A DNA stretch of 33,490 nucleotides, taken from NCBI GenBank assembly GCA_030691735.1, contig JAUYDS010000073.1, forward strand, positions 1 to 33,490, written 5' to 3'. The number at the start of each line of letters is the position of its first letter. Positions within the stretch are counted from its first letter, which is position 1. The notes beneath the pieces are model-generated. The model searched no databases, was not told the origin of the DNA, and worked only from the letters and a program-made list of their open reading frames with translations. A program made the translations under genes and the position numbers. Source of the stretch: Candidatus Aminicenantota bacterium (GTDB lineage: Bacteria; Acidobacteriota; Aminicenantia; Aminicenantales; UBA4085). This document shows, piece by piece, positions 1,617 through 27,012 of this stretch.

Positions 1617-2951
1617 TCATTCGTTGAGGAGAGCCTGGAGCTCGCGGTATTCCTCGGGGGAGATGTCGCCCCAGATATAGGGAAAAACCATCTTGTTATA
1701 GATCAGCGGATCGGCGTCCTTCTTCAGCCGGCCCTGCTCGACAAGCTCCCGCCAGATGCGCGTCCCGGGGATCGGCGAAAAATAGGCCATGCGGGGCTTG
1801 GCCCCGAGCCCGCGGACATCCCGAATACTTTCCTTGATGCCCGCCACGTCTTGATTCGGCAGCCCGGTGATGAGATAGACATGGATGTCCTCCCGCCTGT
1901 AACCGGCCTCGATGAGATGTCCGATCGCCGTTTCAAGATCGCCCCGCCCCACTTTGGGACAAGCTTCGCGGATCACGTCCTCGTCGGTCGATTCCTGGCT
2001 GAGATAAAGCGACAGAACGCCGGCCCGGGCGAAGAGGCGGGCCAGGTCCCGGTCGATCTCCCGGACATGAAGGCCGTTGGGCGTATGAAAGAAGATCGGC
2101 AGCTTTCGACGGACGACGTCTTCCAAGATGGGGACGATATGAGACTCGTGTTTGAGGAGAAGGGCGTCGTCATAGAAAGCAAAATCGCGCGTTCCATAGC
2201 GGTCGACGGCGTCGGCGATCTCCTCGATAACGCGGGCGGGTTCTCGCTGCTCAAAACGGCCATAGAGGAGCGGCCCAGCGCAGAACGTGCACCTGAACGG
2301 GCAGCCGCGCGAAGTCAGGAGCGGAAGGGAACGCTTGTCTCCGAGGAGATCCAGCGCCGGCCGCGGCAAGTCTCGGAACGATGGGAAGTCCGCATCGCGG
2401 ACGCTTCCGTCGCCCCAGATCTCGCGGGCGGCGCGCAGGATCCTCTTCTCCGCCGGGCCGGGTAGGACCATGTCCGCTCCCGAGAAACGCCGGGCATGAT
2501 CCTCGGCCAGTGTCGCGTAGATGCCGCCGAGGACGATCGGGACCGTCCCGAATTTTTGGCGGACCAGTTCGACGGCGAGCTGGACGCCCGGATACCAGTA
2601 GGTCATCGTGCACGTGATCAGGACGAGATCCGGGACCGGGCCGCGCCCCAGCTCAGATAAAAACAGATCGATCGGGATCCCGTAGCGTGAATACCTCCGC
2701 GGGACGGTTTTCAGGACCTCCGGCTTCGGGATCTCCACCTTTAAAAAATGGCCGCGGCCGTCCGGTTTGGACCTCGCCGGCGGCGGCAGTCCGGGATGGA
2801 ACCGGTCGAGACAATCGATGAGACGGAGGTCGACGTCCGCGTTGTCCCGGAGGATCGAAGCGGCGTAGAGAAGTCCGAGCGGCCGGAGCCAAAAATCGTA
2901 GGCCGTGAAATCGGTGATCCAAGGGTTGATCAGGAGGACGTTTTTCTTCAT
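1617..2951 (-). CDS. B12-binding-domain radical SAM protein
   Basis: The 444-aa protein begins MKKNVLLINPWITDF, typical of the cobalamin-binding Rossmann-like domain of class B radical SAM enzymes. This N-terminal domain (about 1-190) is followed by a radical SAM core with CPFRCTFC (C217-x3-C221-x2-C224) after LTSRG. The C-terminal part has the usual HTPNGLHVREIDRDLARL and ITGLPNQD segments. The reaction cannot be predicted; members carry out methylations and other radical chemistry. The ATG at 2951 uses the last A of the encoded tRNA-Leu CCA as its first base, so no separate Shine-Dalgarno site exists. A start nine codons upstream would lie inside the tRNA T-arm and is unlikely. Confidence 0.85.
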   Translation of the reverse strand: MKKNVLLINPWITDFTAYDFWLRPLGLLYAASILRDNADVDLRLIDCLDRFHPGLPPPARSKPDGRGHFLKVEIPKPEVLKTVPRRYSRYGIPIDLFLSELGRGPVPDLVLITCTMTYWYPGVQLAVELVRQKFGTVPIVLGGIYATLAEDHARRFSGADMVLPGPAEKRILRAAREIWGDGSVRDADFPSFRDLPRPALDLLGDKRSLPLLTSRGCPFRCTFCAGPLLYGRFEQREPARVIEEIADAVDRYGTRDFAFYDDALLLKHESHIVPILEDVVRRKLPIFFHTPNGLHVREIDRDLARLFARAGVLSLYLSQESTDEDVIREACPKVGRGDLETAIGHLIEAGYRREDIHVYLITGLPNQDVAGIKESIRDVRGLGAKPRMAYFSPIPGTRIWRELVEQGRLKKDADPLIYNKMVFPYIWGDISPEEYRELQALLNE

Positions 2952-3041
2952 GGTGCGGAAGGTGGGACTTGAACCCACACAGCCTTATAATCGGCTATAA
3001 GCTCCTGAGGCTTACGCGTCTGCCAATTCCGCCACTTCCGC
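2951..3041 (-). tRNA. tRNA-Leu (CAG anticodon), CCA encoded
   Basis: The minus strand folds as a class II tRNA. The acceptor stem is GCGGAAG/CTTCCGC. The D-arm contains GCGGAATTGGCAGACGC. The anticodon stem TAAGC/GCTTA has loop CTCAGGA (anticodon CAG, decodes CTG). A long variable arm (AGCC/GGCT) and a T-arm GTGGG-TTCAAGT-CCCAC follow. Discriminator A and CCA are encoded at 2954-2951. The 3' terminal A is also the first base of the downstream radical SAM start codon. Confidence 0.97.
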
Positions 3042-3069: not shown

Positions 3070-3098
3070 ATTATAATATCATGGCCTCCATGAGTAAA
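3070..3098 (-). promoter_or_regulatory. Promoter of the tRNA-Leu gene
   Basis: Minus strand: TTTACT (3098-3093), 17-nt spacer, perfect TATAAT (3075-3070). The predicted start point, near 3063, lies about 22 nt before the mature tRNA 5' end. The ATTATAAT core is palindromic and also offers a -10 on the plus strand, but no good plus-strand -35 is visible. Confidence 0.7.
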
Positions 3099-3111
3099 GG
3101 GGGGCTCGCTC

Positions 3112-3412
3112 GAAGCGGGCGAAAGCTCTCCTTGTCGCGGGTCGTATCGGCAAGATCGGGAAACGGCTTCGCTCCCGACTCGGGTTTTTAACGCCGTTTC
3201 CTCACCGTCCTTCTCGGCGGCTCACAACTCGCTTCCCGGCTTCCTAATGACGGGGGTGCGCCGGGAAGCTCAAACATGGTTCGCCGGCCGGCCTCTTCCG
3301 GGCCGGCTTCCCTCTAAGGACGGCTCGGAAAGGCTGAACCCTCCATGGTCGCTTCAGCCATTTCCCGATCTTGTCGTTCGGTTCAATCCATGATTGAGCT
3401 TTCGCCCGCTTC
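3112..3412. other. 301-nt nested inverted-repeat (fold-back) element, possible structured RNA or MITE
   Basis: The ends are a perfect 17-bp inverted repeat: GAAGCGGGCGAAAGCTC at 3112-3128 pairs with 3396-3412. After symmetric 22-nt internal spacers a second long-range pairing follows: 3151-3168 with 3356-3373, 17 of 18 positions complementary. Inside lie two local hairpins, 3231-3240/3260-3269 (10 bp) and 3283-3289/3301-3307 (7 bp). Arms of the second helix can also pair locally instead: GGAAACGGC 3159-3167 with 3193-3201, and GGCTGAA 3332-3338 with 3353-3359. No convincing protein-coding frame is present. It does not match RNase P, tmRNA or SRP RNA signatures that I can recognise. The transcribed strand is unknown. 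Confidence 0.6.
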
Positions 3413-3768
3413 TTCTCTCACAGATTGATAACTCACCGAATTTGATCCTTGCTCCATATAAAACTAATACCTCTTCTATCATCTTGGGCGAGGGGAAGAA
3501 GGCGAAGCGACCTTTAGGAAATCTTGCCGCTGCGGTTCGTTTTTTCGGCGGACGATTCAAGGACGCGGAGGCAGGGTTGGCCCTAAGGCCCCCATAGCGG
3601 AGGGGGGCCCCGTCGCTTCGGCGGGGGGAACCGACGGGACTGGTTCCCCAGGGGGCCGGGGGCCACCCTGTCGCCGCGTCGACCTCTATCTCCGCAACCG
3701 GAAAAACCGAACAATGCAGGCGAAAAGATTTCCGCCGGGGAGCGAGTTTATTCCCCGAGCCCTTCCAC
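3413..3768. other. Gene-free intergenic stretch
   Basis: An AT-richer part (about 3413-3480) passes into a GC-rich part with many G and C runs (about 3585-3670). A 67-codon frame crosses it (3394-3597) but has no ribosome binding site and no recognisable domain. Apart from the 25-nt dispersed repeat listed separately, I see no supported feature. Confidence 0.5.
3638..3662. repeat. 25-nt dispersed repeat, copy 1
   Basis: This 25-nt stretch, containing GGTTCCCCAGGGGGCC, is the exact reverse complement of 16544-16568. Both copies are intergenic and G/C-rich. Confidence 0.75.
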
Positions 3769-3797
3769 TTGACAAACGGCCCCCTCGCTCTTATTGT
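3769..3797 (+). promoter_or_regulatory. Sigma-70 promoter for the release-factor-like gene
   Basis: Perfect TTGACA (3769-3774), 17-nt spacer, TATTGT (3792-3797). It predicts a leader of about 94 nt ending in the AAGGAGG site before the ATG at 3898. Confidence 0.65.
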
Positions 3798-3897: not shown

Positions 3898-5040
3898 ATG
3901 AAACTTTTGAGCCGGCAACAGATGGAAAACCTTTCCCGTTTCAAGAGCGAGAAATTCCTGACGACCTCGTTCTTCCTCAACACCGATAAAAGCCGCCAGT
4001 CAAGGAAAGAGATCCTCGTCACGGCCAAGAACCTTCTGGCCGTCGGCCGAACGCGCCTCGAAGCCCTATCCCTCGAGAAGGACAGGAAAGCGTCCCTGGG
4101 CGGGGACCTGGACAAGATCACCGATTTCTGCTCCCAGAACATGACCTCCAATTCGCACGGAGTGGCCGTTTTCTCCTGCCAGGGGGAACGGTTTTGGGAA
4201 GACATTCACCTCCCCCATCCCCCGCGCGACCGGATCCTCTTCGACCACAATCCTTATATCCGGCCGCTGTCCCAGATCCTGAGCCGATATCATCGCATCT
4301 GCGTCTTTCTGGTTGGACGTCCAAGCGCGAAATGGTACAGCGTCTTCATGGGGGAAATCTCGCCCCTCGACGCCTTGACGAACGAGCTCCCGGTCCATGA
4401 CAAGGAGGGGGACTTCGACGGCACCTCAGTCCGCCGCATCGAGCGCCACCTCGAGGCCCATGTGCACGAGCATTACAAGAGAGCCTCGCAGCGGACGTTC
4501 GATCTGTTCAAGAAGGAGAAATTCGATTGGCTCTTCCTGGGCTGCGAGGACGGCTTCTTCTCGGAGCTGGAACTCTTCCTCCACTCCTATCTCCGCGAAC
4601 GGTTGAAGGGCCGGCTCAAGGCCAAGCCCTCCGACCGTGACGACAAGGTCCTCAAAGAGGCTGTCGAGCTCGAGGACCAGCTCAATCAAGCGGCCGAAGC
4701 CGAGACCGTCCGACGGCTCGTGGCCGAGCTCGAAAAGGGAGGCCTCGCCGTCTCCGGCGTCAAGGAAACGCTGCGCCGGCTGAACCAAGTCGAGGTCCAG
4801 ACGATGCTGGTGACCCACAATTTCGCCGCGTCGGGCAAGATCTGCCCGAAATGCCGGTTCCTCTATCTCGATGAGGCGGTCTGTCCGAGCTGCCAGAAAG
4901 CGACCGACCCCGTGGCCGACGTCGTGGACGAAGCGATCGAATCGGCCTTCCGCAGCCATGCCGAGGTCAAGCATATCACCCCTCCCTCGAAGCTCGACCA
5001 TTACGGGAAGATCGGGGCCTTCCTGAGGTATAAGGTCTAA
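3898..5040 (+). CDS. Bacterial archaeo-eukaryotic release factor (baeRF)-like protein
   Basis: The 380-aa protein resembles the eRF1/pelota fold in domain order. An N-terminal region (1-165) is followed by a helical segment beginning about residue 174 (DGTSVRRIERHLEAHVHEHY) that aligns by eye with the region after GGQ in eRF1. Next comes KFDWLFLGCEDGFFSELELF, then a domain-3-like segment GLAVSGVKETLRRLNQVEVQ. A zinc-ribbon pair CPKC (316-319) and CPSC (329-332) sits near the C-terminus. The GGQ catalytic tripeptide is absent. Members of the family are inferred to act on ribosomes, but no function is established for this one. The start has a strong AAGGAGG site and a promoter upstream. The gene is monocistronic and convergent with the efflux operon. 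Confidence 0.7.
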   Translation: MKLLSRQQMENLSRFKSEKFLTTSFFLNTDKSRQSRKEILVTAKNLLAVGRTRLEALSLEKDRKASLGGDLDKITDFCSQNMTSNSHGVAVFSCQGERFWEDIHLPHPPRDRILFDHNPYIRPLSQILSRYHRICVFLVGRPSAKWYSVFMGEISPLDALTNELPVHDKEGDFDGTSVRRIERHLEAHVHEHYKRASQRTFDLFKKEKFDWLFLGCEDGFFSELELFLHSYLRERLKGRLKAKPSDRDDKVLKEAVELEDQLNQAAEAETVRRLVAELEKGGLAVSGVKETLRRLNQVEVQTMLVTHNFAASGKICPKCRFLYLDEAVCPSCQKATDPVADVVDEAIESAFRSHAEVKHITPPSKLDHYGKIGAFLRYKV

Positions 5041-5045
5041 AGAGA

Positions 5046-5078
5046 TCCCCTCCCATCCCCCCTCTTCTAAAGGGGAGG
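5046..5078. repeat. C-run/G-run palindromic repeat after the baeRF gene
   Basis: CCCCTCTTCTAAAGGGG sits within a C-rich then G-rich block directly after the stop codon. It resembles the block at 16625-16645 (CCCCCCTTTGCTAAAGGGGG). It may act as a hairpin terminator for the plus-strand gene, although no T-tract follows. Confidence 0.5.
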
Positions 5079-5180
5079 GTCAAGGGACGAGCCTTCGCGG
5101 CGGAAGTGGACCCCCGGGCAATGCCCGCCCTCATTCGCTTCGCAAATGAGGACTGCAAAGCCTGGGGCCCCCGGCCGCCG
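5079..5180. repeat. GTCAAGGGACGAGCC palindromic repeat, copy 1 (with extra hairpin)
   Basis: It begins GTCAAGGGACGAGCCTTCGC and ends in CCGGCCGCCG. Copies in reverse orientation lie at 11576-11639 and 18324-18387. The core is an imperfect palindrome, GGCGG...CCGCC around a C-run/G-run stem. This copy is about 35 nt longer because its loop contains an additional hairpin, CTCATTCGCTTCGCAAATGAG-like, at about 5130-5150. It occupies the gap between two convergent genes. Confidence 0.75.
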
Positions 5181-11517: not shown

Positions 11518-11575
11518 GGCTAACGCATGGACCAGACGCTTGTCAAGAGGAATGTGGCGACGACAGGCGGTTCGA

Positions 11576-11639
11576 CGGCGGCAGGGGCCCCAGGCTTTGT
11601 CTGGGGATCCGCTTCCGCCGCGAAGGCTCGTCCCTTGAC
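11576..11639. repeat. GTCAAGGGACGAGCC palindromic repeat, copy 2 (reverse)
   Basis: This is a reverse-strand copy of the element at 5079-5180 without the extra loop hairpin. Its GGGGCCCC/GGGGATCC core and GGCGG/CCGCC ends can fold into a long hairpin. It lies between the divergent efflux operon and the orphan secreted-protein gene. Confidence 0.75.
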
Positions 11640-12370: not shown

Positions 12371-12388
12371 CTAAGCGGGGAATAGATT

Positions 12389-12478
12389 GGGGTCGCGTCT
12401 ACACTTTCCACTTTTTGTGGCCATACTTCGGGCCACCGAACGTCATGGGAAAAAAGTGAAAAGTGTAGACGCGACCCC
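12389..12478. repeat. REPIN-like element A (GTCGCGTCTACACTTT family)
   Basis: Two 23-nt arms in inverted orientation (12389-12411 and 12456-12478, one mismatch) contain GTCGCGTCTACACTTT and its complement. They enclose a T-run/A-run extension and a loop with its own GTGGCC/GGCCAC hairpin. The same arms occur at 18302-18452 and 23942-24033. It lies between convergent genes and could double as a terminator. Confidence 0.85.
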
Positions 12479-12481
12479 GTA

Positions 12482-13384
12482 TCATGCCCGCGGATGGAAT
12501 TTATCGTAGACTTTGCGCAGCCGGTCGCGGCTGACATGGGTGTAGATCTGGGTCGTCGTGATCTGGCTGTGCCCCAGCATGAGCTGGACCGAGCGGAGGT
12601 CCGCCCCTCCTTCCAGGAGATGCGTGGCGAAGGAGTGCCGGAGCACATGAGGGCTGATCTTCGCCGTCATATGGGCGGCCCGGGCATGCCGCCGCAGCAT
12701 TTTCCAGAAACCCTGCCGGGTGAACGGTCCGCTCCGCCTCGTCAGGAACAGGGCGTCCGTCGGCTGCTTCAATAGCCGCGGCCGCGCCTCCTCCAGATAT
12801 TTCCGGACGGCCTCGACGGCGGCCCCGCCGACGGGGACGATCCGCTCTTTGCCTCCCTTGCCGCGGCAGAGCACGAAATCGTCCCGGAGATGGATGTCAT
12901 CGACCCTTAATCCGACGAGTTCAGAGACGCGGAGGCCGGCGGCGTACATGACCTCGAGCATGGCCCGGTCGCGGACGCCATGGACGTCCTCCGGGTCGGG
13001 TTGGCGGAGGAGGGTAAGGACCTCTTTGACGGTCAGAAATTTGGGCAGGGAAAACCAGGCTTTGGGCGAGGACAGATGGATGGTCGGGTTTTTTTTTGCT
13101 CGTCCATCTACGATCAAAAATTTGTAGAAGGCCTTGAGCGCCGAGATCAGGCGGGCGAGCGACCGGGCCGACAGTCCGCCCTGGCTCTGCCCGTGAATGA
13201 ACCGGACGAGGTCCGCTTCGCGGGCTTTCGCCCAAGACAGCTTCTCATTTTTAAGGAAAAGCAGGAACTTGGACAGATCCCGGCCGTACGACTGGACCGA
13301 ATTGTCCGAAAGGGTCTTTTCCGCCCTTAGGAAGAGCTGGAATTGGGAGAGGATGTCCTCGGACGGAGGCGACGGCGAGGTCAT
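12482..13384 (-). CDS. xerD: Tyrosine recombinase, XerD-like
   Basis: The 300-aa length is usual for XerC/XerD. The N-terminal SAM-like core-binding domain is at about 10-95 (FLRAEKTLSDNSVQSYGRDLSKF). The catalytic domain carries Arg152 (AAGLRVSEL), Lys in GKGGKERIVPVG, HVLRHSFATHLLEGG, LGHSQITTTQIYTHV and the nucleophile Tyr281. These enzymes resolve chromosome dimers at dif sites. The full conserved set and length argue for the housekeeping recombinase over a phage or integron integrase, but a second Xer gene elsewhere cannot be excluded. Its ATG overlaps the stop of the metallo-hydrolase gene as ATGA. REPIN element A follows directly. Confidence 0.88.
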   Translation of the reverse strand: MTSPSPPSEDILSQFQLFLRAEKTLSDNSVQSYGRDLSKFLLFLKNEKLSWAKAREADLVRFIHGQSQGGLSARSLARLISALKAFYKFLIVDGRAKKNPTIHLSSPKAWFSLPKFLTVKEVLTLLRQPDPEDVHGVRDRAMLEVMYAAGLRVSELVGLRVDDIHLRDDFVLCRGKGGKERIVPVGGAAVEAVRKYLEEARPRLLKQPTDALFLTRRSGPFTRQGFWKMLRRHARAAHMTAKISPHVLRHSFATHLLEGGADLRSVQLMLGHSQITTTQIYTHVSRDRLRKVYDKFHPRA

Positions 13385-16519: not shown

Positions 16520-16543
16520 CGGCGCTGGAGAGCGGGGCGGTAT

Positions 16544-16568
16544 CCCCCGGCCCCCTGGGGAACCAGTC
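16544..16568. repeat. 25-nt dispersed repeat, copy 2
   Basis: This is the exact reverse complement of 3638-3662. It lies in the gap after the transporter gene. Confidence 0.75.
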
Positions 16569-18269: not shown

Positions 18270-18301
18270 AAACGGATCCGGACCGCGGCACAGAAGAAAA
18301 G

Positions 18302-18452
18302 GGGGTCGCGTCTACACTTTCCACGGCGGCCGGGGCCCCGGGTATTGCCCGGGGGTCCACTTCCGCCGCGAAGGCTCGTCCCTTGACTTTTACGACTATC
18401 ATCCGAATAGCCGAAGGTCTCTAGAAAAAGTGGAAAGTGTAGACGCGACCCC
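18302..18452. repeat. REPIN-like element B, carrying a second repeat inside it
   Basis: Two perfect 23-nt inverted arms (18302-18324 and 18430-18452) are of the same family as 12389-12478 and 23942-24033. The interior is longer than in the other copies because a complete copy of the GTCAAGGGACGAGCC palindrome lies directly against the left arm. It is followed within 12 nt by the -10 of the next gene. Confidence 0.88.
18324..18387. repeat. GTCAAGGGACGAGCC palindromic repeat, copy 3 (reverse, nested)
   Basis: This is a reverse-orientation copy of the family at 5079-5180 and 11576-11639. The CCCCGGG...CCCGGGG core is nearly palindromic around TATTG or CAATA. It is embedded in REPIN-like element B. 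Confidence 0.8.
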
Positions 18453-18463
18453 AAATAAAGAAT

Positions 18464-23934: not shown

Positions 23935-23940
23935 ATTATA
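23935..23940 (-). promoter_or_regulatory. -10 element of the symporter gene (leaderless type), abutting REPIN-like element C
   Basis: Minus strand: a perfect TATAAT, 9 nt before the ATG at 23925. At 17-nt spacing upstream lies TGGAAA (4 of 6 to the -35 consensus), which is part of the repeat arm. The repeat may therefore supply part of the promoter. Confidence 0.55.
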
Positions 23941-23941
23941 T

Positions 23942-24033
23942 GGGGTCGCGTCTACACTTTCCACTTTTTTCGGAAAAGCTTTCGAATGCATCTACATCCT
24001 GCCGCAAAAAGTGGAAAGTGTAGACGCGACCCC
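23942..24033. repeat. REPIN-like element C between divergent genes
   Basis: Perfect 23-nt inverted arms (23942-23964 and 24011-24033) continue into T-run/A-run extensions. The interior of about 35 nt is unlike elements A and B. It lies exactly between the -10 elements of the symporter and LolA genes. Confidence 0.88.
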
Positions 24034-24042
24034 AATTAATGC

Positions 24043-26888: not shown

Positions 26889-27012
26889 GGGGACACGTAC
26901 CTTGGGGACACGTACTTTGGGGACAGGTCCTAACTTATTTTGATTTAAGTGGTTATCCCGGCCTTCTAATGTATGTGTCCCTCAGGTACATGTCCCCAAA
27001 GTATGTGTCCCC
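26889..27012. repeat. Inverted array of GGGGACA 15-nt units
   Basis: Left half: three units in a row with 15-nt period, GGGGACACGTACCTT, GGGGACACGTACTTT and GGGGACAGGTCCTAA (26889-26933). The right half carries three inverted, slightly diverged units up to 27012. About 37 nt separate the halves. It lies between convergent genes and shares its word with the hairpin at 14063-14104. Confidence 0.88.

Follow-up and report, generated by a model that had tools for sequence, protein, structure and literature searches.

Miniature inverted-repeat transposable elements (MITEs) are usually regarded as deleted transposons with nothing notable inside. The segment described here, positions 3112–3412 of a 33,490-nt contig of a Candidatus Aminicenantota bacterium (JAUYDS010000073.1, assembly GCA_030691735.1; referred to at its full length as the window), folds back on itself and is read, with a probability that we put at about three in four, as the left half of a composite, now decayed, non-autonomous MITE of the ISL3 type whose core is an undescribed structured RNA on the minus strand. 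In this family, the MITE interior forms an elaborate fold that is under strong selection on one strand and is kept across the order Aminicenantales and across several end types. ISL3 insertion sequences (IS) and IS-derived MITEs are among the closest described systems. They share with the present elements repeats starting with GG, 8-bp duplications, an identical repeat type found in the same order and small copies without transposase, but differ in what the repeats enclose, which here is a conserved structured RNA motif lacking in the autonomous elements examined and not the remnant of a deleted transposase gene.

The remaining comparisons draw on general knowledge. NEMIS/Correia, ERIC, RUP and BOX elements are each confined to one genus or family among the enterics, neisseriae or streptococci. 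They are likewise short, intergenic, high-copy, palindromic, modular and non-autonomous, but consist of short hairpins or modules, whereas the present motif is a branched fold of 190–330 nt whose loops are fixed and whose covariation extends across the order. HEARO/omega RNAs, IS110 bridge RNAs and IStron introns are also structured RNAs encoded in small mobile elements; unlike them, the present motif has no associated nuclease or recombinase open reading frame (ORF), no Rfam match and no match to its insertion sites, and a DDE transposase would act from elsewhere. OLE, GOLLD, ROOL and raiA motif RNAs resemble it in being covariation-defined, elaborate, ORF-free RNAs of unknown function, but the present motif has another sequence and fold, a very high copy number and a MITE as its carrier, and was not found in the phage, plasmid and viral collections searched. 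In the open literature, no report was found of the motif, of palindromic repeats in Aminicenantes or of ISL3 MITEs with a structured RNA, an absence that is not proof of novelty. The conserved interior raises the question of what a non-autonomous element gains from an RNA of 200–300 nt. An active RNA would be a new class, represented by dozens of natural variants in each genome; were it inactive, the family would show to what extent covariation of an RNA can be imitated by processes at the DNA level alone.

Structure, covariation and strand of the core motif

A preliminary description, made from the sequence alone, gave a geometry that a direct sequence check reproduced exactly: the terminal inverted repeats (TIRs; 3112–3128 and 3396–3412) are perfect over 17 bp, the spacers (3129–3150 and 3374–3395) are 22 nt each, and the inner pairing of 18 nt (3151–3168 with 3356–3373) contains a single C/A mismatch. 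A perfect 17-bp terminal repeat in a 301-nt frame was unique to 3112–3412 across the whole window, and the segment folded better than every shuffle (z = -9.1 for the plus strand and -9.7 for the minus strand). As that description had also stated, no protein is encoded (zero ORFs of ≥80 aa overlap 3112–3412) and no recognized RNA family fits, the Rfam 15 covariance models giving no match for the motif at the gathering cut-off or at E values up to 10. A conserved switch based on its competing local pairings was not supported: the alternative pairing GGAAACGGC/GCCGTTTCC is missing in several homologues (L025, L026 and L031).

The conserved unit of the fold-back segment is its inner part, a stretch of 231 nt on the minus strand (3379–3149) that scored 198 bits, and relatives of this core were found throughout the order. 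A covariance model was derived from a structure-free MAFFT alignment of 14 copies, in which 38 of the 58 predicted pairs showed compensatory changes. Of 94 genomes from the order, 63 gave matches; in a phylum-wide sample of 297 genomes, the 8 with matches all lay within the order, with 0/278 outside it. The window's genome has 29 copies, compared with 40 in genome G059 and 56 in G063. The motif was not found in viral contigs searched with two exact patterns or in plasmids and phages searched by distant blastn. Among the genomes sampled, the core appears to be a previously undescribed, strongly conserved structured RNA motif found only in this order of uncultured bacteria (Candidatus Aminicenantes).

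In model-fitted alignments, 87 distinct copies had 94.9% of cells paired and two-sided changes in 51/58 pairs (the observed value was reached in 0 of 500 shuffles, and slid structures gave 38–52%), and 45 more diverse copies had two-sided changes in 49/58 pairs. Compensation beyond chance, for which the preliminary description had proposed a test, was seen in these alignments. Every one of the 17 pairs of the closing helix, P1, showed two-sided changes across the family, while AGCGACC, UUUAGCC and GGCGUUAAAA stayed fixed as P1 varied; the conserved internal loops are asymmetric. The motif is a branched fold of 190–330 nt, consisting of P1, a rod of further helices and a junction from which a short hairpin and a variable arm emerge, in which the helices compensate and the internal motifs are fixed. 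Size classes of ~191, ~255 and ~325 nt were distinguished in G063 and G059. Copies of the 255-nt class carry an extra stretch, often with GGACAT and in some copies with a T-loop-like GGUUCGAA.

A fold that matters on one strand should tolerate G-U pairs there but not A-C mismatches. In P1 on the window's minus strand, G-U outnumbered A-C by ~4:1 (49 vs. 13; p = 5e-6, an optimistic value given that the copies are related), and in all 45 copies compared, folding was more stable for the minus strand (mean -104.7 vs. -88.5 kcal/mol). Selection acts on one strand. The bias speaks for a single-stranded form of the minus strand, which would most simply be RNA, but taken alone it cannot separate RNA from single-stranded DNA. 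One-strand selection would be equally expected of a folded single-stranded DNA substrate, like integron attC sites or IS200/IS605 ends, that forms during replication or transfer and is recognized by an enzyme, and in this genus the fold coincides with the element ends. Such a substrate is nevertheless quite unlikely: the target duplications, terminal repeats and linked DDE transposase described below point to ordinary double-stranded transposition, and a 190–330 nt fold with many fixed loops exceeds the needs of DNA substrates known in general.

Terminal repeats and ISL3 partners

In relatives, the motif sits within inverted repeats of 18–24 bp that start with GGYT, often accompanied by 8-bp target duplications. 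These were identical at 8/8 positions at L177, L184, L191, L201, L209, L210, L211 and L214 and at 7/8 positions at L022, L023, L212, L213 and L230. At L209, the duplication GATTTATC flanks GGTTCTCTTCCATTTTGTGTGGG...CCCACACAAAATGGAAGAGAACC; the duplications at L211, L214, L184 and L191 are AATAAATC, AATAAAGT, TAATCTTC and TAATTTTT, respectively. The motif was found with at least five repeat types, several of which also have duplications; elsewhere in the order, the MITEs with GGYT repeats that hold the motif carry no other cargo.

The repeat type found most often is shared with intact ISL3 elements; this is the one type for which sharing with an ISL3 transposase element was demonstrated. The complete, autonomous elements L244 and L246 (G047 and G035) carry it at both ends (TIR 20/20, duplication 8/8), and L244 encodes an intact 416-aa ISL3 transposase (E = 2e-72); no RNA motif was found in the ISL3 transposase loci examined, including these two. 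In G063, all 20 complete TIR pairs of the commonest type enclose an RNA match (17 strong, 3 weak), and the locus of the single ISL3 gene of that genome (L235) ends in GGTTCTCTTCCATTTTGTGTGGG, exactly as the RNA MITEs there do. On a tree of the RNA, 27 changes of repeat type were counted for 9 labels (one of them "none recognised"), versus 47.9 in shuffles. The repeat type changes repeatedly on this tree; the RNA therefore persists longer than its ends, whether these are swapped or diverge in sequence. The preliminary description had offered an RNA and a non-autonomous mobile element as alternatives; covariation, together with terminal repeats and duplications in relatives, points to both jointly.

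With a scaffold that is conserved and an apical arm that varies, all within a mobile element, the motif is similar in outline to a guide RNA that directs insertion or cleavage, such as the IS110 bridge RNA or the omega RNA of TnpB/IscB. However, the longest word shared with a copy's own flanks was 6.8 and 7.0, versus 6.9 and 7.0 with the flanks of other copies, the linked transposase is ISL3 (DDE) and not IS110 or TnpB, and there was no Rfam HEARO match. Since the RNA matches its own insertion flanks no better than those of other copies, a guide RNA was disfavored, and we regard it as extremely improbable.

Evidence on a possible function of the RNA motif

Several results weigh against an ISL3-type MITE with a structured RNA core. 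At the window copy, no target duplication is visible, and no match to the ISL3 transposase gene (PF01610) was obtained in its genome (G000) or in G001, so that the link to ISL3 rests on relatives; the membership of this copy in the ISL3-derived MITEs would rest on descent of its core from the family. The 87- and 45-copy covariation counts come from alignments fitted to the model, and the shuffles ignore relatedness. A scan for internal promoters showed no clear excess (7 of 87 copies versus 6 on the control side). Orientation relative to neighboring genes showed a weak bias that was not toward co-transcription of the RNA.

The promoter and orientation results also favor a palindrome-rich MITE without RNA function, as do the nested, modular and mosaic palindromes typical of these genomes. 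Pairing would then be maintained at the DNA level, by gene conversion between copies or by the correction of quasi-palindromes through cruciforms or template switching, and the fixed motifs would be binding sites for transposase or host factors. Such processes should leave no difference between the strands, but A-C is about four times rarer than G-U and 45/45 copies have the same strand as the better folder; moreover, the conserved internal loops are asymmetric and not drawn toward perfect palindromes, and the autonomous ISL3 elements examined do without the motif. An element shaped by DNA processes alone is, in our judgment, unlikely.

In the preferred reading, a MITE with a structured RNA core, an ISL3 transposase would move the MITEs in trans, and correct folding of the RNA would help copies to spread or persist. 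The motif would most likely act as a transcribed RNA that serves the whole element and does not regulate its neighbors. Because there is no insertion-site match, no internal promoter signal and no fixed read-through orientation, a function in trans for the element or host, exercised by some copies, would fit better than control of neighboring genes. Any specific activity of the RNA is held with far less confidence than the reading as a whole. It is possible, but doubtful, that the motif represents a new class of mobile structured RNA with a biochemical activity of its own (e.g., ribozyme, transposase recruiter or protection of the host from insertion), which outlives the terminal repeats and is the reason for the success of these MITEs in Aminicenantales.

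The composite element, its locus and related repeats

The unit boundaries of the preliminary description (3112–3412) did not hold: the segment makes up just the left half of a ~665-bp composite repeat (~3099–3764), the conserved RNA is confined to the inner 231 nt of the minus strand, and the outer helix is genus-specific. Homology among other copies spans ~3098–3104 to 3760–3776. The right-end pattern, GGGCTCGGGGAATAAACTCGCTC, was found at 35 ends in the window's genome versus 0 for a reversed-pattern control. Within the window's element, an intact minus motif and a degenerate plus motif are arranged back to back (Table 1); the position of the second motif scored 89.9 bits in L008.

Table 1. 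Coordinates of the element, its parts and the adjoining promoters in the window
Feature	Position	Strand	Remarks
Structured RNA motif (core)	3149–3379	-	P1 as closing helix, helical rod, short hairpin and variable arm; 198–214 bits with two covariance models
P1 arm, 3′ on RNA strand	3151–3168		partner 3356–3373; 18 nt, one mismatch
P1 arm, 5′ on RNA strand	3356–3373		partner 3151–3168
Variable apical arm	3231–3269	-	perfect hairpin here; in other size classes enlarged to at least ~60 nt
Outer 17-bp helix, left arm	3112–3128		seen in this genus only
Outer 17-bp helix, right arm	3396–3412		seen in this genus only
Entire composite non-autonomous element	3099–3764		between -35 boxes of two divergent promoters; homology limits of copies; four empty orthologous loci
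Left terminal repeat, truncated	3099–3112	+	reads GGGGGGCTCGCTCG; GGGCTCGGGGAAGAAGCTCGCTCG in intact copies
Right terminal repeat	3740–3763	-	GGGCTCGGGGAATAAACTCGCTC as read on minus; pattern search
Second motif copy, degenerate	3480–3764	+	opposite orientation; basal half recognizable, apical part replaced; 29.9 bits, E = 6e-7 (covariance model R2)
Palindromic module	3556–3684		elsewhere also solitary or inverted
tRNA-Leu promoter TTTACT-17-TATAAT	3070–3098	-	abuts element
baeRF-type gene promoter TTGACA-17-TATTGT	3769–3797	+	abuts element

The location between tRNA-Leu and a release-factor-like gene, as originally described, was borne out on both sides: tRNA-Leu(cag) lies at 2951–3041, and the gene at 3898–5040 belongs to baeRF_family10 (E = 9e-17). 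The element exactly occupies the gap from TTTACT (3098, minus) to TTGACA (3769, plus). At the orthologous loci L072, L073, L074 and L075, it is absent and the divergent tRNA-Leu/baeRF promoters are close together; because these sites are empty, the element at this locus is an insertion. A shorter version is present at orthologous locus L070 (same-genus genome), and L071 has an unrelated palindrome instead, exactly at the site of the main element. Copies are intergenic, often directly after a stop codon, and in the window the two promoters are kept apart precisely by the element. A cis-acting role at gene ends or between the divergent promoters was therefore considered, either as an insulator or in processing (terminator, RNase III site), as proposed for NEMIS or ERIC hairpins. 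The orthologous loci manage without the element, however, neighbor orientation is mixed, no terminator-like T-run occurs above chance, and a simple hairpin needs no order-wide fixed internal motifs, all of which make such a role very unlikely.

Many insertions are common to the window's species and its sister species, and the copies in the window's genome are therefore old; with no detectable target duplication and no ISL3 transposase gene, the window's copy is a fossil, a decayed composite element. In two orthologue pairs, the core was 94–95% identical versus 89–91% for the flanks (Fisher p = 0.001), and a third, more diverged pair pointed weakly in the same direction (84% vs. 82%). The higher identity of the core could reflect selection or gene conversion. 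At L017 (1488–2155), comparison with an empty site in the sister genome (L146, 13083–13096) showed a multi-module cluster to be flanked by an imperfect duplication of 14 nt, which was not reconciled with the 8 bp seen elsewhere. In this genus, a -35-like box, often with a -10 box ~17 nt further, was seen by eye 8–14 nt outside the CCCCGAG end in L002, L008, L009, L011, L049, L050, L057 and the window; this could indicate insertion beside promoters or an element-borne outward -35.

A search for homologues at other loci, also suggested in the preliminary description, revealed a multi-copy family, with about two dozen relatives of the segment in its own genome (84–94% identity) and a comparable number in a same-genus genome. 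The copies are mosaics, carrying a 102-nt hairpin insert at two fixed places, hairpin arrays at 3178, or the module 3556–3684 inverted in the left half. The insert (GGTCACTCTTGGAAGGAAACCC...), the loop of which has two alternative forms, occurs at the equivalent of 3308 in L018, L049, L050 and L052 and at the equivalent of 3638 in L005, L013, L018, L049 and L053. An isolated, inverted 30-nt piece of module 3638–3667 lies at 16539–16568 of the window.

Other palindromes in the window were also recorded. The hairpin module GGCGGCCGGGGC...GAAGGCTCGTCCCTTGAC occurs at 5076–5127, 11571–11639 and 18319–18387, the last copy occupying the loop of the palindrome 18302–18452, and is also inserted at position 3178 of main-element copies L012, L057 and L061. 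Short intergenic palindromes of REP-like appearance, GGGGACACGTAC...GTGTCCCC and GGGGTCAGGTCTTAACTTTTAACA...GACCTGACCCC, were noted at 26904–27012 of the window and in L006, L063 and L071. The palindromic repeat GGGGTCGCGTCTACACTTTCCACTTTTT...AAAAAGTGGAAAGTGTAGACGCGACCCC has three copies in the window (12386–12485, 18301–18458 and 23935–24040) and gives the identical peptide KVESVDATP to the ends of two unrelated ORFs.
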